Shown here in pieces: positions 10,916-51,118 of a stretch of DNA of 64,000 nucleotides. The stretch covers positions 1-64,000 of the forward strand of contig JAJRSO010000028.1 of NCBI GenBank assembly GCA_024278755.1, in the 5' to 3' direction. The stretch's first letter is position 1, and every line of letters begins with the position of its first letter. Source of the DNA: Calditrichota bacterium (GTDB lineage: Bacteria; Calditrichota; Calditrichia; Calditrichales; Calditrichaceae). The notes beneath the pieces are model-generated. The model was given only the letters and a program-made list of their open reading frames with translations, did not search any database and was not told the DNA's origin. A program made the translations under genes and the position numbers.

Positions 10916-13900
10916 ATGAATATCTTACAAAGAACATTGTTTTTGTCTCTTCTATCCGTTTCCTTCCTATTCGCCGGAAGTGCCGGCAAAATTGCCGGAA
11001 GCATTACGGATGCCGATACGGGTGAGCCGCTCCCCGGTGTAAACATTGTGGTGAAAAACGCTTTACTGGGAGCTGCTACCGATTTAGACGGATATTATGT
11101 GATTTTAAATGTGCCGCCGGGTAAATACACGCTGGAAGTTAGCATGGTTGGATACAGTACAAAGAAAATTATTGATGTAATTGTTCAAATCGATCAAACA
11201 ACCAAGATAAATGTTAAGCTGAATACCGAAACCCTTGATATTGCGGAAGAAATCACCGTCGTTGCCACCCGACCTGTTGTGGAAATGGATGTGGCCGGCA
11301 GCCGCGCAAATATTACATCGGAAGAGATGGAAGCGCTGCCAGTAACAAATGTTTCCAGTGTGGTTAGTTTGCAGGCCGGTATTGAGGGTTCCAGCATTCG
11401 TGGCGGTGGCAGCGATGAGGTTGCCTGGATTGTTGACGGACTTGGTATGCGGAATGAGCGTAACAATACCTCTTTTAATGCTATAAGTTTAACATCGGTA
11501 GAAGAAGTGCAGGTACAAACGAGCGGTTTTAGTGCAGAATTTGGGAATGCCCGTTCCGGAATGGTTAATGTGGTTACGAAAGAAGGGGGGCGGAACAGAT
11601 ATGATTTTAGCTTCCTTGGCCGCTATCGGGCTGCAGCGCCAAAGCATTTCGGGCAATCGCCCAATGATCCGGACGCTTACTGGATCCGGCCGTATGTGGA
11701 TGAAGACGTGTGTTGGGTGGGCACAAAAAACGGTACCTGGGATAAATATATGCAAAAACAGTATCCGGAATTTGTGGGCTTTAATGAAAAATCGAGAGAG
11801 TTGATGACCAATTCCAATCCGGATGATGATTTATCGCCGGCGGCCCTGCAACAGCTTTTTTTATGGGAACACCGTCGCCAATTGGATATTAAAGACCCCG
11901 ACTACAGCTATGATATGAGTTTTGGCGGTCCGGTTCCTTTTGTTAGTAATAAACTCGGCGATTTGCGTTTTCATACCTCTTACCGTCAATCACGTTCCAT
12001 GTATATTGTACCCTTATCCGATGATGCTTACCGGGATTATACCTGGCAGATGAAAGTGACGTCGGATATTGGCCCGGGCATGAAACTGATGTTTCAGGGG
12101 CTTTTGGGACAAGAGAGCGGAACGAACAGCAGCCGCAGTGGATATCCCGGTATTTTTCAGTCCGCCTCGGGAATTGCCGGACAGTTTTATAATTTCAGTT
12201 ATGGACAGGGCGCCTTATTCGGTACGGATTATTGGTCGCCCACACGGGTAAACTATAGTAGCTTTGGTTTTAAGTTTACACATGCCATAAATGCAAAAAC
12301 GTTTTATGAAACAAGTCTTTCCCGGTTTACTTCAAATTACGATACCAATCCCCAAAACTATCGTGATTTTACCCCAATTCAGTTAATCGGAAATAGCTAC
12401 TGGGTGGACGAAGCGCCCTTTGGTTTGGAAAACCAATCCCGGTCTTCCATTATAAACAGTATGCGCATGGGGTCGGCGTTTAGTACCTCGCGCGATAGCA
12501 GTTTCGTTGCCGCCTATACGTTTAAATTTGATCTTAACAGTCAGGTAAACCGCTATAACAATGTAAAAGCCGGCGCCGAATTAGGTATTACCGACAGCCG
12601 GATAAATTATGGCCGTCAGTCCGAATTTGTCTGGTCAAATTCACAGACGAAGTGGAACAGAACCCCGGTTCGCGGGGCTCTTTATGTTCAGGATAAACTC
12701 GAATTCGAAGATATGGTTGCGCAGCTGGGATTACGAATGGATTATTCCAATGCCGGCGGCGAATGGTATTCGAATTATAATGCGTATGATATGGCCTTCT
12801 CGTCAAAATATGCTTCGGGAATTGATACGTTGCTCTCCAAATCGCCCACGAAAGCAGTGGTTACTTTTAGTCCGCGTCTTGCCCTCTCATTTCCCATAAC
12901 CGTCAACAGCAAATTATATTTTAATTACGGGCATTTTCGCCAGCTCCCCCAGCCGGAAAATCTTTATCTGTTTAAAACCCATCCGTATAGTAACCAGGTT
13001 CAATGGGTGGCAAATCCCAACAATCCGCTTCCTAAAACAGTCGCCTACGAAATAGGGTACGAACATAATATTTTGGATCAGCTTTTGGTTCGTATGGCGG
13101 GTTACTACAAAGATATTTCAGAGCAGCCCAAAACAGTAAGTTATTCCAATTCCGACGGAACCGTTTCATACAGTACGAGCGAGCCGAACTCCTACAAAGA
13201 TATCCGGGGGGTTGAAATCACTTTAAATAAGAACCGCGGTAACTGGTTCCGTGGTTTTATTAATTATACCTATATGGTTTCAACCTATGGTTTTTTCGGA
13301 TATGATCGGTATTATGAGAATCAGGTGCAGCAGCGAGAATATGAAAAAGAATTCAAAAAAAATTATCAGCGGAAACCGATTCCCCGTCCCTATGCCCGCG
13401 TAAATCTGGATTTTTTTACGCCGGATAATTTTGGGCCGGAGATTTTTAATTTCCGTCCGCTGGATTCATGGCGTTTAAATGTTTTAGGTAACTGGAAGGC
13501 CGGGAGTTATACAACATGGACAGGCCCCGGCGGCACTCCCCCGGGAATCATATATAATGTTCAATGGAAAGACTATTGGAATCTGAATTTGCGCTTGACC
13601 AAAAGTTTTAAGATTAAGCCAATACGGTTTGAGCTTTTTGTAGATATTAATAATGCGTTTAATACCAAACGGCTTTCCTTTGCCGGCTTCTTTGACGGGC
13701 AGGATTATTTAGACTATATGCAGTCGCTGCACTTTTCTACTAATATAGATGGCTATGACAAGTTTTCGTATATCAATATTCCCGGAAACGATAAGATTGG
13801 CGATTATCGTGATGAGCATGTTAAATATGTTCCCATTGATGTGTACTATAATGCCAATTCGGCTTCTACACCCAATGAAAAAGATTTGTATTATTTTTCC

Positions 13901-14110
13901 AGTAGTTTGCCCGGCGTTCATAACAAGGGGTATTACCGCTATGTGGAAAATGTGGGCGCCAATCAGAGTCACTGGGTTATGGAAGATCAGAAACGGGTAG
14001 ATAAAATTCTGAAAGATAAAGCTTATATCGATATGCCAAATTTTAAATATTTTACATTTTTAAATCCAAGAAATATTTTTTGGGGCTTAAAAATCTCATT
14101 TGATTTATAA
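10916..14110 (+). CDS. TonB-dependent outer-membrane receptor, module 1
   Basis: I choose ATG 10916 (1064 residues) because it follows a TTGGAG ribosome site and begins a good signal peptide (ending LFAGS). A carboxypeptidase-regulatory-like domain comes first (~20-105: GEPLPGVNIVV, GYYVILNVPPGKYTL). The plug follows (~110-225: SIRGGGSDEVAWIVDGL, RSGMVNVVTKEGG). The rest should form the 22-strand barrel, ending in LKISFDL with a terminal aromatic/hydrophobic pattern. Receptors of this class import large substrates through TonB. It resembles SusC in architecture, but no SusD homologue lies beside it. It heads the operon and has a paralogue at 18325. Confidence 0.9.
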   Translation: MNILQRTLFLSLLSVSFLFAGSAGKIAGSITDADTGEPLPGVNIVVKNALLGAATDLDGYYVILNVPPGKYTLEVSMVGYSTKKIIDVIVQIDQTTKINVKLNTETLDIAEEITVVATRPVVEMDVAGSRANITSEEMEALPVTNVSSVVSLQAGIEGSSIRGGGSDEVAWIVDGLGMRNERNNTSFNAISLTSVEEVQVQTSGFSAEFGNARSGMVNVVTKEGGRNRYDFSFLGRYRAAAPKHFGQSPNDPDAYWIRPYVDEDVCWVGTKNGTWDKYMQKQYPEFVGFNEKSRELMTNSNPDDDLSPAALQQLFLWEHRRQLDIKDPDYSYDMSFGGPVPFVSNKLGDLRFHTSYRQSRSMYIVPLSDDAYRDYTWQMKVTSDIGPGMKLMFQGLLGQESGTNSSRSGYPGIFQSASGIAGQFYNFSYGQGALFGTDYWSPTRVNYSSFGFKFTHAINAKTFYETSLSRFTSNYDTNPQNYRDFTPIQLIGNSYWVDEAPFGLENQSRSSIINSMRMGSAFSTSRDSSFVAAYTFKFDLNSQVNRYNNVKAGAELGITDSRINYGRQSEFVWSNSQTKWNRTPVRGALYVQDKLEFEDMVAQLGLRMDYSNAGGEWYSNYNAYDMAFSSKYASGIDTLLSKSPTKAVVTFSPRLALSFPITVNSKLYFNYGHFRQLPQPENLYLFKTHPYSNQVQWVANPNNPLPKTVAYEIGYEHNILDQLLVRMAGYYKDISEQPKTVSYSNSDGTVSYSTSEPNSYKDIRGVEITLNKNRGNWFRGFINYTYMVSTYGFFGYDRYYENQVQQREYEKEFKKNYQRKPIPRPYARVNLDFFTPDNFGPEIFNFRPLDSWRLNVLGNWKAGSYTTWTGPGGTPPGIIYNVQWKDYWNLNLRLTKSFKIKPIRFELFVDINNAFNTKRLSFAGFFDGQDYLDYMQSLHFSTNIDGYDKFSYINIPGNDKIGDYRDEHVKYVPIDVYYNANSASTPNEKDLYYFSSSLPGVHNKGYYRYVENVGANQSHWVMEDQKRVDKILKDKAYIDMPNFKYFTFLNPRNIFWGLKISFDL

Positions 14111-14126
14111 AAAGGGAAAAATCAAT

Positions 14127-15125
14127 ATGCGCCAGTTTATCTTGTTAATCGTGTTTGTTTTCACTCTGTTCCTGAGCTGCGAAAACAACAATATTCTTAA
14201 TCCGGCCAAACAGATATCCGCCATCGAATTGGATATAAAAGGTCTTAACAGCCTTGGCGATTCAGCCTGGTACGAAGTTTGGATTAAGGGCTTATCCAGA
14301 GCCAGTGGCAGCGAACAGGAAACGCAAACCAGCGCCGGTGTTTTTACGGTTGATGATGAGGGGAATTTATCCCAAACGGTATTCGATATTAACCTGGGAT
14401 ACCTGCAGGAAGGATTATCCATCTATTTAACTGTCGAAGAAGATGCGGATGCCGGAAGGCGTTACAATATTTCCGGTCCAGATACTAACCTGGTAATCGA
14501 TACGCTTTATGAACCCAGTAAATATGTTATTATGGCCGCCAAAATTAAAGCCAATGATGGTACATTCTCCATTGGTCATGAAGATATTATTGATTATAAT
14601 TTTAATACAATAAGCGGCACATATCTTTTGGATACACCGACGGATGCGTCTGTTTCCGGTTTGAGCGGCGTATGGTTTGTAAACGATACGTCCTCCGCGG
14701 GAGATACAAAATTTGCCGGATTGACCCTGCCTGTTTTACCCGCCCGGTGGTCCTATGAAGGCTGGGCCGAAATAAACGGCCAGCCTATTTCGACCGGTAA
14801 GTTTTCGAATCCGGGAAGTAGTGACAAGAGCGCCCAATATAGCGGTGACAGCCTTTCCTGGGCTTATAAATTCCCTGGTGAGGATTTTATTAATGACAGC
14901 ACGGGAACATTCACATTCCCCACCGATTTGTCCGGCGCTAATCTCTATGTTACACTGGAACCGCCTCATCCGGCCAAGGCCAATAGCCCTTTTCTAATAA
15001 AACTTTTAACGGCAACAATTCCGGCCAACGCACAGCCAAAAACGGTATATGAAATGCAAAACAATTTTTCTAATGAAGAAATAGTAAATGCGTTTTTGCA
15101 TTTAAATATCAAACTATATGATTAA
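14127..15125 (+). CDS. Lipoprotein with duplicated domain, module 1
   Basis: The start at ATG 14127 gives a lipoprotein signal with lipobox FLSC (cysteine at about residue 18) and a nearby AAAGGG ribosome site 16 bases after the receptor stop. The 332-residue product appears to contain two copies of one ~130-residue domain. The first holds WYEVWIKG, GVFTVDDEG and LSIYLTVEED; the second holds WSYEGWAEING, GKFSNPG and LYVTLEPPHPAK. The pattern recalls the anti-sigma-K-factor (RskA-like) beta domain, also found in extracellular lipoproteins. Function is unknown. Its place between the receptor and the exported protein suggests it works with them at the outer membrane. Confidence 0.8.
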   Translation: MRQFILLIVFVFTLFLSCENNNILNPAKQISAIELDIKGLNSLGDSAWYEVWIKGLSRASGSEQETQTSAGVFTVDDEGNLSQTVFDINLGYLQEGLSIYLTVEEDADAGRRYNISGPDTNLVIDTLYEPSKYVIMAAKIKANDGTFSIGHEDIIDYNFNTISGTYLLDTPTDASVSGLSGVWFVNDTSSAGDTKFAGLTLPVLPARWSYEGWAEINGQPISTGKFSNPGSSDKSAQYSGDSLSWAYKFPGEDFINDSTGTFTFPTDLSGANLYVTLEPPHPAKANSPFLIKLLTATIPANAQPKTVYEMQNNFSNEEIVNAFLHLNIKLYD

Positions 15126-15153
15126 GACTCACTTTATTCGATTGAGGATAAGA

Positions 15154-17253
15154 ATGAATAGAATTAAAAAGAACAGGTACTGGCTTCTTGTAATACTTAT
15201 TGCCGCATCCTTGCTTCCATTCAATTTACAGGCTCAGTTTTCATATAAATGGATGTCTGCCGGAGCGTTGCATAACTGGTTTTCTGAAGCGGGCTGCGAA
15301 ATTGAAGAAGGCCGTTCTTCCAGCGCTTCACAACAGGACGGGCTGCAATGGCCGGCCATCTTTGCCTATCAGGACTGCCAGGCGGCCAAAGGAATGTGGA
15401 TTGGCGCACGCAATTTTACCGATGAAAAAGGAGATGACTATTCGTACAAGGTAGTTCATGTCGGGCCGCGTACCAGTGGTGTGGGCGAAGTTTTTCCGGT
15501 AGATTTCAGAATGATTAGTAAATTTCCTCAACCCGTCGTTACCGTAGACGGAGTGGTGTCGACGTTAAAACCAGTGGATATTGATGAAATTGATGAAAAT
15601 ATGCCATGGGACCGTATGATTATCAATACGGTTAACAGTCAGCTCGGGTTAACAATGACCCGTAAAATTATGCAGTTTAGCAATCCGCAGCATGATAATT
15701 ATATGATATATGATTACACCTTTACAAATACCGGGAATGTGGATGATGACAATGACATCGAACTGAGCGGCCAGGATCTGGACAGCGTCTATTTCTTTTT
15801 TCAATACCGTTACGCTATTAATCGTCAGGTCAGGTTTTTAGTCCATAATTCTGCCGGATGGGGTAAAAATACAATGAATGACGCCCGGGGAGACGGGCCG
15901 GTTAATCCCGCGCTCTATGGAGACCCGGCCGATGAAAATATACGCACACAGTATGCCTGGCACGGGTATCATCCGGAAAAGGAGATTGCCTGGGATAATA
16001 TTGGCGTCCCTATTTTTTGGCCGGATGTTTATAATTATATCGCAGAAACCGACACGGTTGGCCGGCTTGGAGCGCCCCAGTTTGTTGGTATTGCTACGAT
16101 TCATGCCGATAAATCCGCCGATGACCCCAGTGACGACTGGGAGCAGCCGTCGACAACAGTACATATCGGTTCCGACATACCGCGTACCAAGACAAATGAT
16201 CCGTATAATGAGACATGGATGCAGGAAGAATACGGATGGATGAAAAAGGGGCATATGGCCCGTCATGCCCGCCTTGTGCAGCCAGACGGCGATTATGCGG
16301 TACAAAAGGCACATCCTGTGTTAACATCGGGCGGTGGATATTCTTCGGCAAACGGATATGGCCCCTATTCCATTAAATTTGGTCAAAGTATTCATATTGT
16401 CATGGCCGAAGCCGCCGCCGGCCTTAGCACAAAAGAGTGCATCCGAATCGGCGGAATGTATATGGACGGTCTGCTGTCCGACCGGGCTAAAAATGAATTG
16501 GTTTTATCGGGAAAAGATTCGCTGCTTAAAACCTTTAAAAAAGCGATTGCCAATTACGAATCCGATTATGCTATCGAGCAGCCGCCCTTTCCTCCCAGGA
16601 GCTTTACCGTAGAAGGCGGCGGTGATAAAATTTTATTAAAATGGGATGTTTTTGAAAACGACCCTAATTTGGCGAATCTGGCAGGATTTCGTATTTATCG
16701 CAATGCCGGCGAATACAATAATCCCCTGCGTCCGGCAGACTTGATTTATGTGGCCGGTAAAGATGAACGCATGTTCGAGGATTTTTCACCGGTGCGCGGC
16801 GTTGGCTATTACTATTATATAGAAGCATTTGATGATAATAATCTAAACAGTAGCCGCTACTATACGCAAACGGTTGATGCCGCCTATTTAACCCGGCCTC
16901 AGGGAGATAAAATGGACGATATTCGCGTTGTTCCAAATCCCTATATTATTTCATCGTCAGTGGATCGCCTGCGTTTTGACGGGGAAGAAGATAAATTAGC
17001 CTTTTTCAACATTCCCGGAAAATGTCGGATAAGTATTTTTACGGAAAACGGCGAACGGGTAAAAACCATTGTCCATACCAATGGTAGCGGCGACGAATCC
17101 TGGAATGCCGTTACTTCTTCCAATCAATTGGTGGTGAGCGGTATTTATATCGCATATATCGAAGTTACCGAAGATATTATTGATCAATCTACCCTAAAGA
17201 AAATATATGCCAAAGGCCAAAACAAAATAGTAAAATTTGTAATAGTAAGGTAA
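15154..17253 (+). CDS. Large exported protein with VPNPY-type C-terminal domain, module 1
   Basis: ATG 15154 follows TTGAGGATAAGA and starts a signal peptide ending LQAQ; the product is 699 residues. The N-terminal ~450 residues form a domain I cannot name; its paralogue at 21384 shares motifs such as LTMTRKI/LTMKRTI and TFTNTGNVD. A fibronectin-III-like domain follows (~480-590: PPRSFTVEGGGDKILLKWD, FRIYR). The end (~600-699) begins IRVVPNPYI and closes with FNIPGKCRISIFTENGERV, SGIYIAYIEV and KIVKFVIVR. This is laid out like a T9SS sorting domain but with VPNPY instead of NYPNPFNP, so export through the T9SS is inferred. The PorV-like gene follows after 24 bases. Confidence 0.85.
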   Translation: MNRIKKNRYWLLVILIAASLLPFNLQAQFSYKWMSAGALHNWFSEAGCEIEEGRSSSASQQDGLQWPAIFAYQDCQAAKGMWIGARNFTDEKGDDYSYKVVHVGPRTSGVGEVFPVDFRMISKFPQPVVTVDGVVSTLKPVDIDEIDENMPWDRMIINTVNSQLGLTMTRKIMQFSNPQHDNYMIYDYTFTNTGNVDDDNDIELSGQDLDSVYFFFQYRYAINRQVRFLVHNSAGWGKNTMNDARGDGPVNPALYGDPADENIRTQYAWHGYHPEKEIAWDNIGVPIFWPDVYNYIAETDTVGRLGAPQFVGIATIHADKSADDPSDDWEQPSTTVHIGSDIPRTKTNDPYNETWMQEEYGWMKKGHMARHARLVQPDGDYAVQKAHPVLTSGGGYSSANGYGPYSIKFGQSIHIVMAEAAAGLSTKECIRIGGMYMDGLLSDRAKNELVLSGKDSLLKTFKKAIANYESDYAIEQPPFPPRSFTVEGGGDKILLKWDVFENDPNLANLAGFRIYRNAGEYNNPLRPADLIYVAGKDERMFEDFSPVRGVGYYYYIEAFDDNNLNSSRYYTQTVDAAYLTRPQGDKMDDIRVVPNPYIISSSVDRLRFDGEEDKLAFFNIPGKCRISIFTENGERVKTIVHTNGSGDESWNAVTSSNQLVVSGIYIAYIEVTEDIIDQSTLKKIYAKGQNKIVKFVIVR

Positions 17254-17277
17254 ACCTAATTTTATGTGGGTGCTTTC

Positions 17278-18291
17278 ATGAATAAATTCGTAACAACACT
17301 TACACTGCTGGCGATCAGTTTTGTTTTTACCGTGGCTGCGCAGGCGGGAAACAGAAAAATTGCACAAACCGGGATGAAATTTCTTTCGGTCTCCACCGAT
17401 GCCCGGATGAGCGCCATGAGCAATGCGGTTACTTCGTTAGACGGCAGTTCTTCGACGGCTCTGTTCTATAATCCTGCAAGTATGGCTAATGCCGCCTGGC
17501 AATCGAGCTTTTCCTTTGGTAAAACCAAATGGATTGCAGACATCGATTATGTTTTTGGCAGCATGGCGTATCGTCCCGGAAAGGGGCAGTATGGTGTTTT
17601 TGGCCTCACTTTTGTCGCCGTGGATTATGGTGACTTTTTGGGAACCATTCGCGCAGAAAATGAACAAGGCTTTTTAGATGTGGGTACCTTTAGTCCCTCT
17701 GCCTATGCCATCGGGTTAGGATATGCCAAAGCGCTTTCCAGCAAATTTTCGGTTGGAGGACATGCGCGTTATGTGAAACAGGATTTGGTTGGCGGAGCGG
17801 TTGATTTTCTTAATAGTCAAAATTTGGCTGCCAATAATTATGAACAGGATGTATTTGCCTTTGATTTCGGCATCCTGTATAAAACCGGGTTCAAAAGCTT
17901 AAATTTTGGCATGAATGTCCATAATTTTTCAAAAGAAATTCAATATATTCAGGAATCCTTTCAATTGCCTCTGACTTTTGAAATGGGCCTTTCTATGGAT
18001 GTAATGGATTTTGTGGATGTCGACAAAAATTTACACACATTGCTCTTTTCTCTGGATGCCGTACATCCACGTGATTTTCCCGAGCAAATTGATATTGGGA
18101 TGGAATATATTTTTATGAAACGCTTCGCGCTAAGAGCCGGCTATACAATGCCCGCGGATGAACAGGGACTCAGTTTTGGTATGGGTATTAAACAAACCGT
18201 CGCCGGAATAGGATTTGATTTGGATTATGCCTATACAAGTTTCGGAGTTTTTAACGACATTCACCGTTTTACCATGAAGTTTTCATTGTAA
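17278..18291 (+). CDS. PorV-like outer-membrane protein, module 1
   Basis: ATG 17278 begins a 337-residue protein with a signal peptide (ending AAQAG). The mature start, QTGMKFLSVSTDARMSAMSN, then FYNPASMA, is the signature of PorV/UPF0164-family FadL-like barrels. Alternating strands follow, ending in a terminal phenylalanine (FTMKFSL). In the T9SS, PorV binds the sorting domain of substrates arriving from the translocon and hands them to the attachment complex. Here it lies directly after a putative exported protein and before the next receptor, so it is probably a dedicated paralogue rather than the general PorV. An in-frame GTG four codons upstream is an alternative start. Confidence 0.87.
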   Translation: MNKFVTTLTLLAISFVFTVAAQAGNRKIAQTGMKFLSVSTDARMSAMSNAVTSLDGSSSTALFYNPASMANAAWQSSFSFGKTKWIADIDYVFGSMAYRPGKGQYGVFGLTFVAVDYGDFLGTIRAENEQGFLDVGTFSPSAYAIGLGYAKALSSKFSVGGHARYVKQDLVGGAVDFLNSQNLAANNYEQDVFAFDFGILYKTGFKSLNFGMNVHNFSKEIQYIQESFQLPLTFEMGLSMDVMDFVDVDKNLHTLLFSLDAVHPRDFPEQIDIGMEYIFMKRFALRAGYTMPADEQGLSFGMGIKQTVAGIGFDLDYAYTSFGVFNDIHRFTMKFSL

Positions 18292-18324
18292 CAGGGAACA
18301 CTATTAAACTAACGGGTAATTAAA

Positions 18325-21300
18325 ATGATAAGAAAAATACTGTCTGGGTGTATCCTGGTTTTCTTTCTGATAAATTTTTTAGCGGCAGGAACGGTTGGGA
18401 AGATTGTCGGTATTGTAACCGATTCTGAAACCGGGGAACCCTTAATGGGGGTCAATATTTTCCTTCCGGGTACAAGCCTCGGCGCTGCGACCGATCAGGA
18501 CGGATATTTTGTTATTTTAAATATTCCTCCGGGAAATTATACGCTCCAGGCATCCTATGTTGGATATGCCGACTATATGGTTCAGAATATAAAAGTAAAA
18601 ATAGGTCTGACAACCAATCAAAACATTGCTTTAACTTCCCGTTTGATTTTTAGTGAAACGGTGGTTGTTGAAGCGAAACGACCGGTGGTTGTTAAAGATA
18701 TTTCCAACAGTCAGCTAAATATCGATGCACAGGTAATTCAGATATTGCCTATCCAAAATGTAAATGAAGTGCTTACGCTGCAAGCCGGTATCCAGATGGG
18801 AACCGAGGGGATTTTGGTACGTGGCGGCGGGGCCAACCAAACACTATTTATGGTGGACGGGTTAAGCCTTAATGACGAACGTTCTAATATTCCATACACG
18901 ACAATGAGTTTAAGTTCTGTGGAAGAACTTCAGGTTCAAACAGGCGGTTTTAATGCGGAATACGGCGACCTTCGTTCCGGTCTGGTTAATGTGGTGACTC
19001 GAGAAGGCAGAAATGAAAAATACGAAGCCTTTGCAACATTTAATCTCAGTCCCATTCAAAGAAAACAACTCGGCCCCTCTTTGTATAGTCCAAACTCCTA
19101 TTTTAACCGACCCTTTTTAGACCCGGATGTTTGCTGGACAGGAACAAATAACGGCGCCTGGGATGAAAACATGCAGAAACAGTATCCCAATTTTGAAGGG
19201 TGGAATTCCATATCCGAAAAGACATTTACGGATAATATCGAAGGGAACGAATTAACCCCGGAAGGAGCAAAACGCCTGTTTGAATGGCAGAGAAGACGCG
19301 AAGGAGATATCGATAAACCCGATTATCTTGTTGATATCGGTTTAGGCGGTCCGGTGCCTTTTGTTGCAGAACCGTTTGGGAAGTTACGTTTTTTTATAAC
19401 CCATGTCCGCAACAGAGAAATGTTTGTATTCCCATTATCCCGTGACAGTTATTCCGAAAACAATACACACCTCAAATTAACATTGAATATACAGGATAAT
19501 ATGAAGTTATCGTTGTCTTCTATGTATGGGGAAGTGCGCTCTGTTTCGCCCTATAACTGGAAAACAACACCCACGGGAAGAGTATTAAGGTCGGAAAGCG
19601 AAGTGGCCAATTTAGCCAATAGCGCTTCCGTACTTTATATGCCCGGCTATTACAGCCCGTCGGATATTTACCGTAAAACCCTGGGGCTGAAATTTACTCA
19701 TATCCTGAGCGCCACAACATTTTACGATGTTTCGTTACAATATATGAGTAATAATTATAATACGTTTCAAACCGCTCTGCGCGATACTTCTAAGAAATAT
19801 GAGCCGGTGCCCGGTTATTTTGTGGACGAGGCGCCCTATGGTTACTGGGGTAGCAGCAGCAGCGGAATTGACGGTATGAGCCTGGGCGGCTGGATGAATC
19901 TTGGCCGGGATAAAACCGTAAACACCACGACAACTTTTACCTACGATATTACTTCTCAGTACAATAAACAAAACCTGTTTAAAGCGGGACTCAAAATTGT
20001 ATACAACGATTTCAATGTAAAATCCACAACCGAAAGTCCCACCATGAGCACCTGGACCCGAAGCATGGTTTACCATATTTATCCGTACCGTGTTGGCGCT
20101 TATGTACAGGATAAACTGGAATATGAGGGTTTTATTGCCAATGTTGGTCTGCGTCTGGATATTTCCGATTCGAATACGGATGTTTATTTGCTGGATGCGT
20201 ATGATAAGTATTATAAAGCCGGGTATGGAAATTCCATCGAAGCGGATGTGCCTACCGAGAAATCCAAAGCAAACATAAAACTAAGTCCGCGTCTCGGTAT
20301 TTCACATCCCATTACGGATAATTCCAAGCTGTATTTCAACTATGGACATTACTATTCCGAGCCGGCCTCTTCCTATCGTTTCCGGATTCAGCGCGAGTCT
20401 AATGGCTTTGTGACCTATATGGGCAATCCTAATCTGGACTGGGAAAAAACCATAGCCTATGAGCTGGGTTATGAACAAAACCTGTATGGGCTTTTGCTGT
20501 TCAAATTAGCGGCCTACTATAAAGATGTCACACATCAACCGGGCTGGATTTATTACCAAAATGTAAATGCCTCGGCGGCCTATTATAAAAGTTCAAATAA
20601 TAACTATGCGGATATCCGCGGTTTCGAAATAACGCTTACCAAAAAAATGGGCCGCTGGATTTCCGGTTTCGTAAATTATACATACGACGTTACTTCTTCG
20701 GGTTATTTCGGTTTACTTAAAGAATTTCAGGATCCCAATGCGCAACGGGTTTATTTAAGCGAAAATCCGTATCAATCCAAACCTCATCCACGCCCATATG
20801 CCCGGCTTAATGTGAATATCCATTCTCCTGATGAATACGGGCCGCAGATATTGTCGTTATATCCGCTTGGAGCCTGGAACCTGAACATTTTAGCCAACTG
20901 GAAAGCCGGCCGCTATGCCACATATAATCCCAATAATATTCCGGGTATTGTGAATAATGTACGGTATCGGGATTATTACAATGTTGACCTGCGTTTAGCC
21001 AAAACATTTTTCTTTGCCTCGCGCAGTGTTCAGATTTATATGGATGTGACCAATTTATTTAATGAAAAACGATTCAATTATGCGGGATTTTCGGACAGCT
21101 ACGACCGTGAAAACTATTTGCAATCTCTTTGTTTCGACTGGGAAACAGGCGACAGAAAAGGGAATGACAAGATCGGAGATTACCGTCCTGCCGGAGTAGA
21201 TTTTGACCCGTTGGAAGCAAATCCCGATAATGATCCCGAAATATCCGCCCGGAATGCCGCCCGTAAAAAAAATAAATCCTATATTGATATGCCAAATATC

Positions 21301-21360
21301 AAAGCGCTTACATTTTTATACCCGCGTTTTATTACGTTTGGGTTAAAGCTTAATTTTTAG
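18325..21360 (+). CDS. TonB-dependent outer-membrane receptor, module 2
   Basis: This 1011-residue paralogue of the receptor at 10916 has the same order: signal peptide (ending LAAG), carboxypeptidase-regulatory-like domain (~22-105: GEPLMGVNIFLPGTSLGAAT), plug (~115-225: LVRGGGANQTLFMVDGLSLN, RSGLVNVVTREGR) and barrel. Shared landmarks include CWTGTNNGAWDENMQKQYP here and CWVGTKNGTWDKYMQKQYP in the other, so the two arose by duplication. They have diverged clearly at protein level, suggesting different ligands or partners. It begins 33 bases after the first PorV-like gene and is probably in the same transcript. Confidence 0.9.
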   Translation: MIRKILSGCILVFFLINFLAAGTVGKIVGIVTDSETGEPLMGVNIFLPGTSLGAATDQDGYFVILNIPPGNYTLQASYVGYADYMVQNIKVKIGLTTNQNIALTSRLIFSETVVVEAKRPVVVKDISNSQLNIDAQVIQILPIQNVNEVLTLQAGIQMGTEGILVRGGGANQTLFMVDGLSLNDERSNIPYTTMSLSSVEELQVQTGGFNAEYGDLRSGLVNVVTREGRNEKYEAFATFNLSPIQRKQLGPSLYSPNSYFNRPFLDPDVCWTGTNNGAWDENMQKQYPNFEGWNSISEKTFTDNIEGNELTPEGAKRLFEWQRRREGDIDKPDYLVDIGLGGPVPFVAEPFGKLRFFITHVRNREMFVFPLSRDSYSENNTHLKLTLNIQDNMKLSLSSMYGEVRSVSPYNWKTTPTGRVLRSESEVANLANSASVLYMPGYYSPSDIYRKTLGLKFTHILSATTFYDVSLQYMSNNYNTFQTALRDTSKKYEPVPGYFVDEAPYGYWGSSSSGIDGMSLGGWMNLGRDKTVNTTTTFTYDITSQYNKQNLFKAGLKIVYNDFNVKSTTESPTMSTWTRSMVYHIYPYRVGAYVQDKLEYEGFIANVGLRLDISDSNTDVYLLDAYDKYYKAGYGNSIEADVPTEKSKANIKLSPRLGISHPITDNSKLYFNYGHYYSEPASSYRFRIQRESNGFVTYMGNPNLDWEKTIAYELGYEQNLYGLLLFKLAAYYKDVTHQPGWIYYQNVNASAAYYKSSNNNYADIRGFEITLTKKMGRWISGFVNYTYDVTSSGYFGLLKEFQDPNAQRVYLSENPYQSKPHPRPYARLNVNIHSPDEYGPQILSLYPLGAWNLNILANWKAGRYATYNPNNIPGIVNNVRYRDYYNVDLRLAKTFFFASRSVQIYMDVTNLFNEKRFNYAGFSDSYDRENYLQSLCFDWETGDRKGNDKIGDYRPAGVDFDPLEANPDNDPEISARNAARKKNKSYIDMPNIKALTFLYPRFITFGLKLNF

Positions 21361-21383
21361 ATGGAAGTAAAAAAAGGAAAAAG

Positions 21384-23570
21384 ATGATACATACCAAAAG
21401 AAAATATGTAGTAAAGCGATTACATCTAAAATACCTGTTCCTCTGTTTTTTTCTGTTAAACACAGCCGCTCTGTTTGCTCAGGTGGAAGGCTCCGAAACC
21501 CGCTATGTCCGCATCGGTTCATTGCAAAGCCATTATACGGCATACGGTGCGGAACGTGCCTGGAATAACTCATATTATGAAGGTTTGCGTTGGCCGGCAG
21601 AGTATTTACAACAGGATAATGCCGTTATTAAACGAGCATGGATTGGCGCAGAAAACTATATTGACAAAGACGGTTTGGAATGGCCGGCATACGCCATTTC
21701 CCTAACGGCCGGATTTGTGGGTGAATCGTTATTTCCCATGGAATTAAAGCAAACGGCCCGTTTTGCACCGCCGGCTGTTTATGTGGACGGAAACAATGTA
21801 ACCGCTCCCTATGCCGGAGATGTGGACGAAATAAATCCCAACCAAATTCCGGATCGGATCATTACTAATATTGTAAATACCTCGATGGGACTGACGATGA
21901 AACGTACCATCTACGTTTTCAGTCAGCAATATCACGATAATTACCATATAAAAATATTTACGTTTACCAATACCGGAAATGTGGATTATGATGATGAAAT
22001 AGAACGCCACGGGCCGATTAATGGCCTGCGTGTCGGTTGGGGAACGCGTTACAGTTGCAGCCGGGAAGGAGCCTATCGTATTGGTAATGGCCAATCCTGG
22101 GGAAAGCACAGCTGGGTTACCAAACGCGGCGAAAACTATGCCGACCATTATACGGAAGAAATCACTCCGGCAAACCCCATTGTCGACTGGCTGCGCTGCG
22201 GTTTTAGCTGGGCCGGTCAGTCCGAGTTGAATGATTTTGATAATATCGGCGCTCCCTATGTAACTAAAGACGGCCGATTAACCTCTCCGCACCATGTGGG
22301 AACCGTCGTTTTGCATGTGGATAAAGCAGCGGACGATAATAGCGATGATCCTGCCCAGCCGACCACACTGGGCTGGCATGCCGGAGATACCTATCCGGGA
22401 ATTACTTCCATAACCCGGGCGGAAATTCCTAAAATGGTCTATCTTTACAGTATGCTTAGCGGCGTTCCGCATAATGGGCTGGGCGGCAACGACCGTTTTT
22501 ACGAAAACTATATAGATAAAAATTCTGATCCCTGGCTTAATCACAATGACGGCGGCGGAACAAATATTTGGATAAACTATGGGCCGTTTAATCTTGAAGA
22601 AGGCGATAGCATTGTCATTGTGGAAGCGGAAGGGATAAACGGGCTTAGCCGGAACATGTGCGAAACGATTGGCAGACGTTGGAAAAAAGCCTACCTGGAT
22701 GCCAATGATAAAGGCCCCTTTGAATTACCCGATCACAGTATCACAACGGATAAAGATGTTTATAAAGATGCCTGGGTAATGACCGGGCAAGATTCGATAA
22801 TGTTGACTTTTAGCCGGGCAAAACGCAATTATGATATGGGTTTTCAGATTCCGCAGCCTCCGGATCCACCCTCGCTATTCGAAGTAACCTCTGGCGGCGA
22901 CAAAATAATTTTATCCTGGGCGCCAAGCGCATCGGAAGGAGAAGAGGATTTTGGCGGCTATAAAGTTTTTAGGATCGAGGGTAAAACAGATACGGTATAT
23001 AATGAAATATTTGCCTGTGGTTACGAAACCGATCATCCTCAGATAGTCAACTATTTCGAAGACCTGAGCGCCGTCCGCGGTGTCCGGTATTTTTATTATA
23101 TTGTGGCTTTTAGCAAAGGGCTTAATAATAATACAAATGCAAATCCCCATGGGAAATTGTACAGCAGTAAATATTACACCCGCACGACAGAGCCCGCTTA
23201 TTTAAGAAGAGTGGCCGGAGAGAATCTTTCCGGGATCAGAATTGTGCCGAATCCTTATTATTTTGACAAATCAAAAAATCTGCAGTTTCCCGGTGAACAG
23301 AATAAAATAATGTTTTATAACATTCCCAAATACTGCAAGATAAAGATATTTACGGAACGCGGGGATCTGGTTGAAACAATTAACCACAAAGACGGCAGCG
23401 GAGATGAAGCCTGGTTTAATTTAAGTTCTTCCCGCCAAACGGTGGTAAGCGGCGTGTATATTGCGCATATCGAAGTGACAAAAGATATTGTTGACACTTC
23501 TGAACAGCCGCAGCGCCTTGTCTTTAAAAAGGGCCAGTCGATTATTAAGAAATTTATTGTTGTCCGATGA
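21384..23570 (+). CDS. Large exported protein with VPNPY-type C-terminal domain, module 2
   Basis: This 728-residue paralogue of the protein at 15154 begins after an AAAAAAGGAAAAAG ribosome site. The signal peptide (~residues 13-33) ends ALFAQ. It shares with its partner an unnamed N-terminal domain (GLRWPAEYL/GLQWPAIFA, AWIGAENY/MWIGARNF, LTMKRTI, TFTNTGNVD), a fibronectin-III-like region (LFEVTSGGDKIILSW) and the C-terminal block starting IRIVPNPYYF and ending QSIIKKFIVVR. Export via the T9SS with a non-canonical sorting domain is inferred. The 39-base gap to the second PorV-like gene repeats the order of module 1. Confidence 0.85.
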   Translation: MIHTKRKYVVKRLHLKYLFLCFFLLNTAALFAQVEGSETRYVRIGSLQSHYTAYGAERAWNNSYYEGLRWPAEYLQQDNAVIKRAWIGAENYIDKDGLEWPAYAISLTAGFVGESLFPMELKQTARFAPPAVYVDGNNVTAPYAGDVDEINPNQIPDRIITNIVNTSMGLTMKRTIYVFSQQYHDNYHIKIFTFTNTGNVDYDDEIERHGPINGLRVGWGTRYSCSREGAYRIGNGQSWGKHSWVTKRGENYADHYTEEITPANPIVDWLRCGFSWAGQSELNDFDNIGAPYVTKDGRLTSPHHVGTVVLHVDKAADDNSDDPAQPTTLGWHAGDTYPGITSITRAEIPKMVYLYSMLSGVPHNGLGGNDRFYENYIDKNSDPWLNHNDGGGTNIWINYGPFNLEEGDSIVIVEAEGINGLSRNMCETIGRRWKKAYLDANDKGPFELPDHSITTDKDVYKDAWVMTGQDSIMLTFSRAKRNYDMGFQIPQPPDPPSLFEVTSGGDKIILSWAPSASEGEEDFGGYKVFRIEGKTDTVYNEIFACGYETDHPQIVNYFEDLSAVRGVRYFYYIVAFSKGLNNNTNANPHGKLYSSKYYTRTTEPAYLRRVAGENLSGIRIVPNPYYFDKSKNLQFPGEQNKIMFYNIPKYCKIKIFTERGDLVETINHKDGSGDEAWFNLSSSRQTVVSGVYIAHIEVTKDIVDTSEQPQRLVFKKGQSIIKKFIVVR

Positions 23571-23609
23571 ATTTTGTTTTCCTGACCGTCTCAAATTAGG
23601 GAGTTTTAA

Positions 23610-24602
23610 GTGAACAACGCATTGTTTAAAATATTTATAGCAGGAATGGTACTTTTAAGTATCCGTGTTTCTTTTGCTCAGGAAAAAAAAGCACAAACCG
23701 GGTTTCAGTTTTTAAGTGTTGTTCCGGATGCCCGCTCCGCGGCTTTAGCCGGAGCAGTTACAACCGTATCGCAAATGTCTTCGGCCCTGTGGGATAATCC
23801 GGCCACAATGTCTGAAATGAATAAGGAACTGGATGCGGTTTTTAGTATGAACCAATGGATTGCCGAAATTACTCATAATGCCTTTTCTATGGCTTATCGA
23901 CCAAATAACGGACTGTTGGGCGTTTTTGCCATTTCATTTTTGTATGTGGATTATGGAGACGTCGAAGGAACCATATTTGCCCAGAATGAACAGGGATATC
24001 TGGATACCGGAGATATTCGACCCACGGCATATGCATTAGGTTTAGGTTATGCCCGCAGTTTAACACCCCGTTTTAATGTGGGAGGGCAAATTAAACTGGT
24101 GCGCCAAAGCCTTGGGCCTGCACTGATAAAACTTACGGCCGGGGATAATATTATAAAACAGGATAAAAATGATCTATCCGTGTTAGCGTTCGATTTTGGC
24201 ACAACGTATAAAACAGGGTATAAAAGTTTTGTATTTGGCATGTCCATTCGAAATTTTTCTCAGGAAATTAAATATGTAGATGAAAACTTCCAGTTGCCGC
24301 TAACGTTCAGTATTGGCGCATCAATGGATTTATTTGATTTCGTGGATGCGCCACAGCAAAACCTTCGTTTGTCTGTGGATGCCATTCATCCGCGCGCGCA
24401 TATAGAACAGATAAAAATTGCTACCGAGTATTTGTATAAAAATTTCCTTGCGCTGCGTTTTGGATATGTGAGCGGCGCCGATGAGGAAAACCTGAGTTTC
24501 GGTTTTGGAGTTCATACGTTTGGTTTTGGTCTGGATTATGCTTATACACCGTTCGGCGTATTTACAAAAGTACAACGAATTTCCATAAGGTTTACACTAT
24601 AG
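23610..24602 (+). CDS. PorV-like outer-membrane protein, module 2
   Basis: A 330-residue protein starting with GTG after GGGAGTTTTAA, with a signal peptide ending SFAQ. QTGFQFLSVVPDARSAALAG and LWDNPATMSEM mark it as a PorV/UPF0164-family barrel; FGLDYAYTPFGVF and a terminal RFTL close it. It is clearly related to the protein at 17278. Known PorV acts as the shuttle that carries T9SS substrates to the attachment complex. This copy follows the second VPNPY protein, so a substrate-specific role is likely but unproven. Confidence 0.87.
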   Translation: MNNALFKIFIAGMVLLSIRVSFAQEKKAQTGFQFLSVVPDARSAALAGAVTTVSQMSSALWDNPATMSEMNKELDAVFSMNQWIAEITHNAFSMAYRPNNGLLGVFAISFLYVDYGDVEGTIFAQNEQGYLDTGDIRPTAYALGLGYARSLTPRFNVGGQIKLVRQSLGPALIKLTAGDNIIKQDKNDLSVLAFDFGTTYKTGYKSFVFGMSIRNFSQEIKYVDENFQLPLTFSIGASMDLFDFVDAPQQNLRLSVDAIHPRAHIEQIKIATEYLYKNFLALRFGYVSGADEENLSFGFGVHTFGFGLDYAYTPFGVFTKVQRISIRFTL

Positions 24603-24639
24603 ATAATAAACAGGTTATCTGTTAATTAATAGGAGTTAG

Positions 24640-25899
24640 ATGATGAAATACCTTTTAATTTCGGCTTTTCTGCTGTTTACAATGTTTTTAGCGGGATGTA
24701 ATGAAGAACCGCAGGAAAGTTTGTGGTCAATGAAACCAAGGTATGAGGTTTTACCGGATCCGACCATTACCTCCGTTGTTCCGGAAAAAGGCGCTTATGC
24801 CGGCATCGACGAGGTGACCATTGTAGGAACAAATTTTTTAACAGAGGTTTCCAAGGTCAAAGTATATTTTGATAATGTGCCGGCACAGGTAGTTAATTCT
24901 ACACAAACGGAAATTAAAGTGATTGCGCCCGTAATTGCAGGCGATTCGATTATTATAAAGGTTCAGATAGACGGCGCGCTGCAATATGCTGCTTACCAAC
25001 CGGGATACAAAGTAGAATTTGCCGAAGGTGAATTTGGCGGCATCACCGGACAATCAAATGCGTATGGCATTGCCATCGATTTGGATGAGAACTTATATGT
25101 TTCGCTCGGCGAGGGAAAAATTGTAAAAATCGATCAGGATGGCAATCAGGAAGATTATGTGACGACCGAACAGGGCGTAGACGGTTTTTATTCGTCTATG
25201 AAAATAGGCCCCAACGGTGATTTATTTGCATCGCGTACCAAGTATATTTATAAAGCGCCCGCCGGCGGCGGCTCCATGTATAAGTTTACCGTTACAAAAT
25301 TAAAACAAGCTATAAATGACATCGACTTTGGCCCCTATGGCGATATTTATGTGGCCGCAAAAAAAGGAATCTATTTTGTTCAACTGGCAGATTCCAGCGG
25401 AAGTCTGGCGATGGCCTATGATAATTTTATCCTCAATGCCATTAGGGTTTACGATGGCTATGTTTATGTGGCCGGGAGCTATTCTTCTTTTTCGTCAACA
25501 CCTGTTAAAGAGGGTATCTGGAGAAATCAAATTCTTGGCCCGGGCGGTCAGCTGGGAGCAACGGAATTGGTAATTGACTGGGAACACAGCTTTGACTCGC
25601 CTACCTACCCTAAAATACTGGCCATTACCTTTGCGGAAGACGGCTATATGTACGTAGGCGCCGATTCTACCGATAATGCGGACGCCATTACGGTAATTCC
25701 GGCCAATGGGAATAACAGTTATTCAATAGGCGACGCTTATCCCTTATATCAGGCGGTTTTAATGCCCCCGTCGGCCAAGTTTTGCTGGGGCAATGATCAA
25801 TATCTTTATGTTAACCGGAAAAGTTTGGACAATGATTTGGCTAGAATTATAAAAATAACAATGGGTAAAATGACAGCCCCGTATTACGGGCGCAAATAA
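24640..25899 (+). CDS. IPT/TIG-domain lipoprotein with propeller-like region, module 2
   Basis: A 419-residue protein with lipobox FLAGC (cysteine near residue 20). An IPT/TIG immunoglobulin-like domain (~42-125: PTITSVVPEKGAYAG, VTIVGTNF) is followed by an NHL/SMP-30-like propeller region (~130-415: AIDLDENLYVSLGEGKIVKI, IGPNGDLFASR, DIDFGPYGDIYVAAKKG). IPT-propeller lipoproteins lie beside SusC/SusD-type loci in many Bacteroidetes and are usually surface glycan-binding proteins; binding here is inferred from that. It occupies the lipoprotein slot of module 2, though it is unrelated to the module 1 lipoprotein. An alternative start lies one codon downstream (ATGATG). Confidence 0.82.
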   Translation: MMKYLLISAFLLFTMFLAGCNEEPQESLWSMKPRYEVLPDPTITSVVPEKGAYAGIDEVTIVGTNFLTEVSKVKVYFDNVPAQVVNSTQTEIKVIAPVIAGDSIIIKVQIDGALQYAAYQPGYKVEFAEGEFGGITGQSNAYGIAIDLDENLYVSLGEGKIVKIDQDGNQEDYVTTEQGVDGFYSSMKIGPNGDLFASRTKYIYKAPAGGGSMYKFTVTKLKQAINDIDFGPYGDIYVAAKKGIYFVQLADSSGSLAMAYDNFILNAIRVYDGYVYVAGSYSSFSSTPVKEGIWRNQILGPGGQLGATELVIDWEHSFDSPTYPKILAITFAEDGYMYVGADSTDNADAITVIPANGNNSYSIGDAYPLYQAVLMPPSAKFCWGNDQYLYVNRKSLDNDLARIIKITMGKMTAPYYGRK

Positions 25900-25985: not shown

Positions 25986-27401
25986 ATGAAGAAATTGTTA
26001 GTATTGTTAGTATTGTTGTCAAGTTTTGTCTTCGGCGGAACGCAGTGGGGATGGGTATATCAGGACGTTGCCATTAATGGCTGGGAAAGAGCAACGGACG
26101 AAGGTATGGCTAAAGTGAATGTGCATGGCTTTAAAAATCCTTACGGCGTAACGGTAGATTCAACCGGTAAAGTATGGGCCGCCGCTTATTATCAGCGCTA
26201 CTATTATGCTGAAGATGGCACAACAAAAATTTATCCGGATGACGTTGAAAAAACAGTAAAGGGATCGCAGGGACAGGATTCTACCTACCTTACTCAGACA
26301 CGTCCTATTTTTATTAGAAAACTGGACGGGTCCATTGATACGCTTCGCTATTTAACCTGGGCGGACGGACATATTGATACATTATTTAACGGTAACAGAG
26401 GTCTGGCAACGCTTCCGGACGGCAGTGTGCTTTATGCTGCGGACTACGGTATCCTGATAAAGATTAATCCCTTAACCTATGAACCGATTGCCGAATATGA
26501 TCTGGGCTCTACCTGGAGAACGGCGCGCCCGGATGTGGATGCGGACGGTTATATTTATAATATCAGCCTGTTTGGCGGCGATGTTATTATTCTTGACGGC
26601 AGTGATATGACCGTTTACAATACCATCCCGGCCACAGCCCCCGGCGTTTCTCGTGGAATCGCCTGTTCACCGGACGGTCAACATGTATTTATTCCTTCCC
26701 AGGGCGGAGGTGTACATCATTATTATAATAAAGACGGTGTTGACGGTTCTTATGCCTTAATCGATACTTTGGCAAAAACCTTTATCGATGGTGAGGGAAC
26801 CGAAAAAGCTTTACCTTCTACAATGGCTTTATGGGATCCGGCCGGCTTATTATGGGTTGGACGTCAGGAATATTCCAGTTCCGATCAATACATTATGTGG
26901 GCGTATGATCCGGATCAGGAATTCGCATTAGTGGATGATTACAGTTTCCGTTCACCGACAGCGGAAGACACTACGGTATACGGTTATCCTCAGCCAGGAT
27001 TTGTAAGATGCCCCCGTGACGCGGCCTTCAGTAAAGATGGTATGACCATGTACATAGCCGATTTCTACAGCTATTCCATTAAGCAATTCCATTATGAAGA
27101 AAAAGTAGGCATTGCCGATGAGAATGCAACTGTTCCAAACAGCCTGTATCTGGGACAGAACTATCCGAATCCGTTTAATCCCACGACTAAAATCCCGTTT
27201 TCTTTATCAAAAAGAGCGAACGTACGTTTAAAGATTTATGACAGCCTGGGTCGTGAACTTATGATTGCCATTGACAAAGAGATGTCACCTGGCGACCATT
27301 TTTACACATTCGACGGCAGCAAACTGGCTTCGGGAACCTATTATTATAAACTGACGGTTGATACAAAGGTAAGAACCGGAAGAATGATGCTGGTTAAATA
27401 A
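25986..27401 (+). CDS. Secreted beta-propeller protein, T9SS cargo
   Basis: This 471-residue protein starts after a strong AAGGAG and has a short signal peptide (ending VFGG). The body is a YncE/NHL-like propeller with blades such as NPYGVTVDSTGKVWAA, RGIACSPDGQHVFIPSQGG and RDAAFSKDGMTMYIADF. The end is a canonical sorting domain (GQNYPNPFNPTTKIPFSL, closing RMMLVK). It is the last gene before a strong terminator, 86 bases after the IPT lipoprotein, and so probably the final gene of the operon. It differs from the VPNPY proteins by carrying the standard sorting signal. The role is unknown; propellers of this sort mostly bind ligands. Confidence 0.85.
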   Translation: MKKLLVLLVLLSSFVFGGTQWGWVYQDVAINGWERATDEGMAKVNVHGFKNPYGVTVDSTGKVWAAAYYQRYYYAEDGTTKIYPDDVEKTVKGSQGQDSTYLTQTRPIFIRKLDGSIDTLRYLTWADGHIDTLFNGNRGLATLPDGSVLYAADYGILIKINPLTYEPIAEYDLGSTWRTARPDVDADGYIYNISLFGGDVIILDGSDMTVYNTIPATAPGVSRGIACSPDGQHVFIPSQGGGVHHYYNKDGVDGSYALIDTLAKTFIDGEGTEKALPSTMALWDPAGLLWVGRQEYSSSDQYIMWAYDPDQEFALVDDYSFRSPTAEDTTVYGYPQPGFVRCPRDAAFSKDGMTMYIADFYSYSIKQFHYEEKVGIADENATVPNSLYLGQNYPNPFNPTTKIPFSLSKRANVRLKIYDSLGRELMIAIDKEMSPGDHFYTFDGSKLASGTYYYKLTVDTKVRTGRMMLVK

Positions 27402-45850: not shown

Positions 45851-46483
45851 CTATCTTCTCCTTATATGAAATAATTTGATACAATGAAATTGGAAATTTG
45901 TTTCATTTGCAATTGTAACAGAATGTAACGTTTTTTTGCCGATTCGATCAGATGTCTTACACCCGTTAATACGCAGCAAATAAATGAAAATAAAGATTAA
46001 TAAAATGAAAGTAAAATTTATTGAGAGTCATTAAAATAACGGGCTTTATGTCGATTCGCATGGGTAATAGGAAATAAAAAAAATATAACCACTGAATTAC
46101 ATAATGCCAGAAGCGGACAGGCCGAAAATCCATTTTAAAAGACTACCGATTTTTCTGTGTCTGCTTTTAAACAGGCTTTAAAAGGTTTTGGTCAATATGT
46201 GCATCCACTATAAAAGCCGCTAATTTTGCGAATTAACGCGAATATTTTTAACCGGGCATTAAAAAACGAGCATCCTGTCTGTGAATCCGTGTAAATTCGC
46301 GGCATTTTTTTTAAAGAATGTTGCCCAAATAATACGTATAACGCCAAAACCATATTTTAAAACATCTAAATAAAGATCGCTTTATTTATTCCGATACTCC
46401 GTTAAAGTGTCTTAACAAATAGGTATAAAGCAGAAAAGACCCACTCCTTTTTTAATAAATGAACCTGAAAAGCAGGTACCCTT
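45851..46483. other. Long intergenic region between divergent genes
   Basis: 633 bases between the reverse M16 gene and the forward hybrid kinase gene. No reading frame of interest, terminator or tRNA was found. It holds copy 3 of the GCCGCGAAT repeat (46216-46303) and should contain promoters for both divergent genes, but no clear consensus stands out in the AT-rich sequence. Confidence 0.5.
46216..46303. repeat. GCCGCGAAT dispersed repeat, copy 3, as an imperfect inverted pair
   Basis: The left arm begins GCCGCTAATTTTGCGAATTA (from 46216). The right arm GTGAATCCGTGTAAATTCGC (46281-46300) with GGC after it is its approximate reverse complement. The ~90-base unit could fold as one long hairpin. 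Related half-units occur at 36803 and 43119. Confidence 0.5.

Positions 46484-51118
<4,635 letters not shown>

Follow-up and report, generated by a model that had tools for sequence, protein, structure and literature searches.

The window analyzed here is a 64,000-nucleotide stretch of DNA from a Calditrichota bacterium. It contains two consecutive gene sets, each encoding a TonB-dependent receptor (T), an exported protein with a C-terminal VPNPY sorting domain (V), and a barrel protein of the PorV/PorQ family (P). This T-V-P arrangement is real, conserved, and far above chance, and the triplet is a co-inherited gene module. We lean toward reading it as a cargo of the type IX secretion system (T9SS) together with a dedicated PorV paralogue that both exports and holds it, placed beside an energised receptor. 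More tentatively, the modules may represent a third type IX class, whose VPNPY tails stay uncleaved and, with dedicated PorV paralogues, form receptor-coupled surface uptake complexes, a counterpart of SusCD present in many copies in several phyla of the Bacteroidota/Calditrichota supergroup. The findings suggest a widespread and apparently undescribed surface machine with its cargo clamped to its own anchor.

Organization of the locus

The window is part of contig C15, and its own genome has a size of 3.94 Mb. The two sets comprise eight genes (10916-25899), all with open frames and all on one strand. These genes and the one that follows them are:

10916..14110, + strand: TonB-dependent receptor 1, with CarboxypepD_reg and Plug domains and the TonB-box-like motif EEITVVATR
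14127..15125, + strand: lipoprotein 1, with lipobox LFLS|C and no SusD-family match
15154..17253, + strand: VPNPY exported protein 1, with a signal peptide, an Fn3-like segment, and a C-terminal VPNPY sorting domain (~16912-17250)
17278..18291, + strand: PorV/PorQ-family barrel 1 (PorV-like 1), NF033709 201 bits
18325..21360, + strand: TonB-dependent receptor 2, with barrel, plug, and CarboxypepD_reg domains and the TonB-box-like motif ETVVVEAKR
21384..23570, + strand: VPNPY exported protein 2, with a C-terminal VPNPY sorting domain (~23226-23567)
23610..24602, + strand: PorV/PorQ-family barrel 2 (PorV-like 2), NF033709 190 bits; also PF11751 (PorP/SprF) 26.8 bits, cut-off 22.3
24640..25899, + strand: lipoprotein 2, with lipobox LAG|C, an IPT/TIG domain, and a weak propeller signal
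25986..27401, + strand: propeller-type protein with an ordinary type A C-terminal domain (CTD), TIGR04183 34.5 bits, cut-off 23

The intergenic gaps among the eight genes are, in order, 16, 28, 24, 33, 23, 39, and 37 bp. The first-pass annotation of this DNA had described two sets in the same receptor/VPNPY/PorV order, gaps of 16-39 bases, and one extra lipoprotein per set (after the receptor in set 1 and after PorV in set 2), and all of these details hold. Promoter and terminator scans at the locus gave no scores above those of shuffled sequence.

The accessory positions recur elsewhere. A gene of similar size occupies the lipoprotein 1 slot in loci L066, L068, L069, L075, and L076, and a lipoprotein of similar size occupies the lipoprotein 2 slot in L066, L069, L075, and L076. 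First-position orthologues of receptor 1 are found in L066, L068, and L075. In other genomes, a type A CTD gene is frequently next after the triplet (the 'TVPa' order), as is the gene at 25986..27401 in the window. Predicted type IX cargo is very dense throughout this stretch, with 11 proteins carrying ordinary QNYPNPFNP-type A tails between 1060 and 63032. An open frame (1549 aa) at 46430-48133 has propeller repeats that match the PorZ model in a region other than the tail; two TGA codons fall within one of the weak matches there.

Linkage across genomes

A tail model (A4) built from the seven VPNPY tails of the own genome was run over that genome and over G004, a complete genome of the same family (4,978,541 bases), and the matches were compared with the PorV-family gene lists. 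The scores fall into two groups separated by a gap, with strong VPNPY tails at 70 bits or more and ordinary tails below 55 bits. A PorV-family gene lies within 200 bases 3' on the same strand for 21/27 strong tails, compared with 2/113 weaker tails (odds ratio 194, p = 1.4e-17, from two complete gene lists). The strong tail is directly followed by a PorV-family gene in 7/7 cases in the own genome and 14/20 in G004, and a TonB-receptor gene lies upstream of the VPNPY/PorV pair. The module is thus correctly described but understated by the first-pass annotation, as there are seven copies in the own genome (two of them inside the window) and about fifteen in the complete relative.

The six G004 VPNPY genes that have no PorV directly downstream are all located in clusters that hold a PorV-bearing module. 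Either some barrels are shared or the tail is not strictly cognate to one barrel. At L095 (G004:C1:978000-997900), four consecutive VPNPY genes have one receptor and one PorV in common. Two of the seven own-genome modules contain an in-frame TAA (L083:9776-13000 on G000:C50, and G000:C7:28593-29534), one in the VPNPY gene and one in the PorV gene. The interrupted VPNPY gene has an orthologue in G004 that is intact, and the TAA codons represent either decay or assembly error.

A search of GTDB species genomes with five VPNPY tails yielded 80 loci, which this subset of queries biases toward one widespread module type, that of the queries themselves. These loci belong to Calditrichota, Ignavibacteria/Melioribacter, KSB1, Neomarinimicrobiota, WOR-3/Stahlbacteria, Rhodothermales, Chlorobiota, and Bacteroidetes bins. 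Because the query was the tail only, the neighbouring genes provide independent evidence. A PorV-family neighbour, adjacent or one gene off, accompanies 75/81 VPNPY genes, and a receptor lies one or two genes upstream of 53/54 VPNPY genes with enough upstream sequence. By comparison, these loci also contain 75 ordinary type A genes, and a PorV follows none of them. The gene order is mostly T-V-P, and ten loci have T-P-V or P-V; in these (L149, L151, L157, L158, L161, L163, L166, L172, L177, and L182) the PorV gene precedes the VPNPY gene, either after a receptor or at a contig end. As in a dedicated shuttle/cargo system, the cargo gene adjoins its own barrel gene across genomes. Conserved neighbourhoods had been named in the first-pass annotation as strong support for a joint system, and the counts from both searches supply this amply.

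Co-inheritance and age of the tandem pair

In the PorV tree, canonical PorVs form one clade (100% support) and PorQs form another. The module PorVs fall outside both clades and are sorted by module. Among the paralogues within G004, PorV distances are correlated with those of the tail (r = 0.80) and of the receptor (r = 0.82; p = 2e-4). For 4/4 testable own-genome modules, the best G004 partner is identical by all parts. These matched distances and agreeing partners indicate that the parts have not been swapped among modules. Matched distances follow from linked inheritance alone and are not proof of binding.

One alternative is that only the PorV paralogue and the VPNPY protein belong together as shuttle and cargo, the receptor being co-transcribed (e.g., through common nutrient induction) with no physical complex. 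The pair is linked about as tightly as the triplet, and the comparable type B CTD/SprF pairs of Flavobacterium have no described receptor partner (PMC12618676). However, the receptor is present in all but one of the loci with room for it and in two orders (T-V-P and T-P-V), its co-divergence with tail and PorV is as strong as theirs with each other, and such modules account for about a third to a half of all Plug-domain receptors in the two genomes. It is possible that the receptor is no more than a co-regulated neighbour, but we regard this explanation as unlikely.

The two sets in the window share 43% (receptor), 40% (VPNPY protein), and 49% (PorV) identity, and DNA similarity between them survives in short patches only, so the duplication is old. 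In the PorV tree, the position-1 and position-2 PorVs of the window each join counterparts from other genera, and thus the tandem pair predates those genera. A recent tandem duplication was rejected on the basis of this grouping and the scarce DNA similarity. The same tandem arrangement is found in L066 and L068, and also in L069, where receptor 1 is lost at the contig end.

The VPNPY tails and their passengers

The full-length VPNPY proteins 1 and 2 have no match in Pfam or NCBIfam. Neither is matched by the type A CTD model TIGR04183 (cut-off 23 bits) at an E-value of 0.1, nor by the type B CTD model TIGR04131 (cut-off 35 bits); among 20 VPNPY tails, the latter matched one at a sub-threshold E-value of 0.003. 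When the VPNPY tails were aligned with the ordinary YPNPFNP tails of the own genome, hhalign gave a probability of 96.8%. Judging from these profile comparisons, the VPNPY tails and the type A sorting domains share a common origin but are distinct.

Against PDB profiles, the VPNPY tails match the tails of PorZ (5m11, E = 0.002) and PorU (6za2, E = 0.05), and the ordinary tails of the own genome match cleavable PorV-bound type A CTDs and a gingipain CTD. The NCBIfam PorZ model matches 16/20 VPNPY tails versus 0/11 ordinary tails, and the PorU model matches 17/20 versus 9/11. Taken as single sequences, the tails match PorZ and PorU weakly (best E = 6.6e-9). In Porphyromonas gingivalis, the anchor of PorZ is PorQ and that of PorU is PorV (PMC5562754). 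The CTDs of PorZ and PorU are retained rather than released, and a review has suggested that such tails may be protected against cleavage by cognate PorV-like barrels (PMC10202324). The VPNPY tails thus match this 'stay bound' class best, which is the main reason for viewing the barrel as a putative anchor and not as a shuttle only.

A structure model of VPNPY protein 1, built from two sequences, was too poor for use (pLDDT 32). The model of a widespread 1171-residue VPNPY protein (pLDDT 77) has a multi-domain beta-sandwich/Fn3 architecture with the tail domain at the end. Its fold matches, at very low TM-scores, are mainly generic Fn3/Ig proteins and include PorZ (second by E-value) and an S-layer protein. 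Such a model would fit a surface-exposed binding or scaffold protein, and its fold matches gave no basis for assigning a ligand.

PorV-family barrels and the type IX machinery of the genome

Both window barrels exceed the cut-off of the PorV/PorQ family model NF033709 (90 bits) with their scores of 201 and 190 bits. They do not reach the equivalog cut-offs for canonical PorV (NF033710; 93 and 73 bits, cut-off 250) or canonical PorQ (NF033711; 79 and 96 bits, cut-off 220). A joint profile of the two barrels finds F. johnsoniae PorV in the solved SprA-PorV structures 6h3i/8gl6 (E = 1.9e-11).

The own genome encodes the SprA translocon (~865 bits, cut-off 200) and the PorU sortase (816 bits, cut-off 420). 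It also has a canonical PorV (C50:12234; 259 bits, cut-off 250) and a canonical PorQ (C50:62184; 226 bits, cut-off 220), so the module PorVs come on top of the general shuttle. The possibility that the module barrels are the only PorVs of this genome was rejected because of these two genes on C50. According to the first-pass annotation, each receptor travels with its own PorV-like protein; the linkage is upheld, and the general shuttle is not replaced by these barrels. Also proposed there was recognition of the adjacent non-standard CTD by the PorV-like protein, which would fit the linkage, the co-inheritance, and the resemblance of the CTD to those of PorZ and PorU.

PorV itself is homologous to FadL (PMC12578637), and barrel 2 shows a trace of similarity to the FadL/TodX family (14 bits). 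These points would suit an arrangement in which the barrel transports hydrophobic molecules together with the receptor, leaving export of the VPNPY protein to the ordinary PorV. Such a role is highly improbable, as the family scores far favour PorV/PorQ (190-201 bits), the strongest link of the barrel is to a CTD-type tail, and other PorV-family genes of the own genome also adjoin CTD proteins. Another possible cargo/barrel set lies at L190:12895-16319 (G000:C18), about 2.4 kb past SprA, where the gene for a protein of 492 residues with a weak CTD match precedes two divergent PorV-family genes. At L194:5068-11135 (G000:C14), a PorV-family gene comes immediately after the gene for a PorU-like protein of 1687 residues whose tail is type A-like, an arrangement that parallels the PorU/PorV pairing.

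Receptors

Both window receptors have SusC-like N-terminal CarboxypepD-reg and Plug domains, and the TonB barrel model matches receptor 2. TonB-box-like motifs are present in both and in at least 40/83 module receptors, and for this reason the predicted export-and-uptake role is plausible. Neither window receptor reaches the SusC/RagA subfamily cut-off, and no SusD-family match was found in the window lipoproteins or VPNPY proteins. Seven of the 23 Plug-domain proteins in the own genome are module receptors, and over the two genomes about a third to a half of such receptors are located in modules.

Most module receptors have Plug scores toward the bottom of the range. This, together with the large size and multi-domain beta-sandwich/Fn3 build of VPNPY proteins and the fold matches of the modelled one (mainly Fn3/Ig assemblies, with PorZ and an S-layer protein among them), could point to structural layers held on PorV anchors, with receptors that are structural or signalling proteins rather than importers. 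However, the retention of TonB-box-like motifs argues against this scenario, and many diverged copies per genome suit substrate specialisation better than a single lattice. We consider a surface scaffold of this kind improbable.

Proposed mechanism

In the favoured reading of a type IX cargo with a dedicated PorV paralogue and an energised receptor, each set would form a three-part outer-membrane module. The VPNPY protein would enter the periplasm by Sec export via its signal peptide and cross the outer membrane through the type IX translocon (SprA) of the genome. Its tail would then be captured by the PorV-family barrel encoded next to it, not by the general PorV. Being of the PorZ/PorU kind, the tail may escape the sortase cut and remain bound, in which case the barrel would combine the roles of export shuttle and permanent anchor. 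The displayed protein and the adjacent receptor may catch a substrate for energised uptake, as SusD does with SusC, and the lipoproteins may assist in substrate capture or uptake.

Sec export, passage through SprA, and capture and retention by a cognate PorV are modelled on the type B/SprF system (PMC12618676) and on PorZ/PorQ. Co-operation between receptor and cargo is suggested by the near-invariant linkage, the TonB-box-like motifs, and the likeness to SusCD. Contact between barrel and tail, absence of cleavage, a receptor-cargo complex, and an uptake function are what we infer from these parallels.

Comparison with known systems

If this proposal is correct, cargo-specific type IX shuttles are not confined to the SprF family but include the PorV family, a third type of tail carries a 'stay bound' signal, and protein secretion and TonB-dependent uptake are united in one gene module. 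It would also explain what about a third to a half of Plug-domain receptors do in the two genomes, both of which are little studied. A cultured host, Melioribacter roseus, is available for tests.

The first-pass annotation knew of no described system with this composition, a claim that needs qualification. One shuttle per cargo has been described for type B/SprF (PMC12618676), with PorZ/PorQ as an analogous case (PMC5562754). PorV paralogues linked to both cargo and receptor have no description in the literature searched, which comprised open-licence papers only, such that absence there is not proof. The module follows the known theme of cargo-specific type IX shuttles; the large-scale use of the PorV family and the joining to TonB receptors are the parts not found described there.

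For the type B CTD/SprF pairs of F. johnsoniae (SprB/SprF and others), experiments have established that the barrel is required for the export and destination of its cargo (PMC12618676). The module resembles these pairs in having one barrel per cargo with the barrel gene directly downstream (PMC12618676), and in having clusters with common shuttles, as the sharing at L095 is reminiscent of the orphan type B cargos of Flavobacterium. It differs in its barrel, a member of the PorV/PorQ family, in its tail, which is not of type B, and in having a TonB-dependent receptor as a fixed third partner.

As with PorZ-PorQ and PorU-PorV in the T9SS attachment complex, whose tails are the most similar, a CTD protein would be held on a PorV-family barrel. 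However, those are single housekeeping pairs, whereas the module pairs are amplified, have different passenger domains, and are coupled to receptors. The ordinary type A CTDs (TIGR04183) served by the general PorV have a homologous Ig-like tail, and both tail types occur in the window; VPNPY proteins 1 and 2 differ from them in lacking a TIGR04183 match, and ordinary type A genes are unlinked to PorV. Finally, the module is similar to SusC-SusD (RagA-RagB) in that a SusC-like receptor is encoded with a surface protein and in that many paralogous copies exist per genome. In contrast to SusC-SusD, it has no SusD match, and type IX secretion, not a lipid anchor, would deliver and hold its surface partner.
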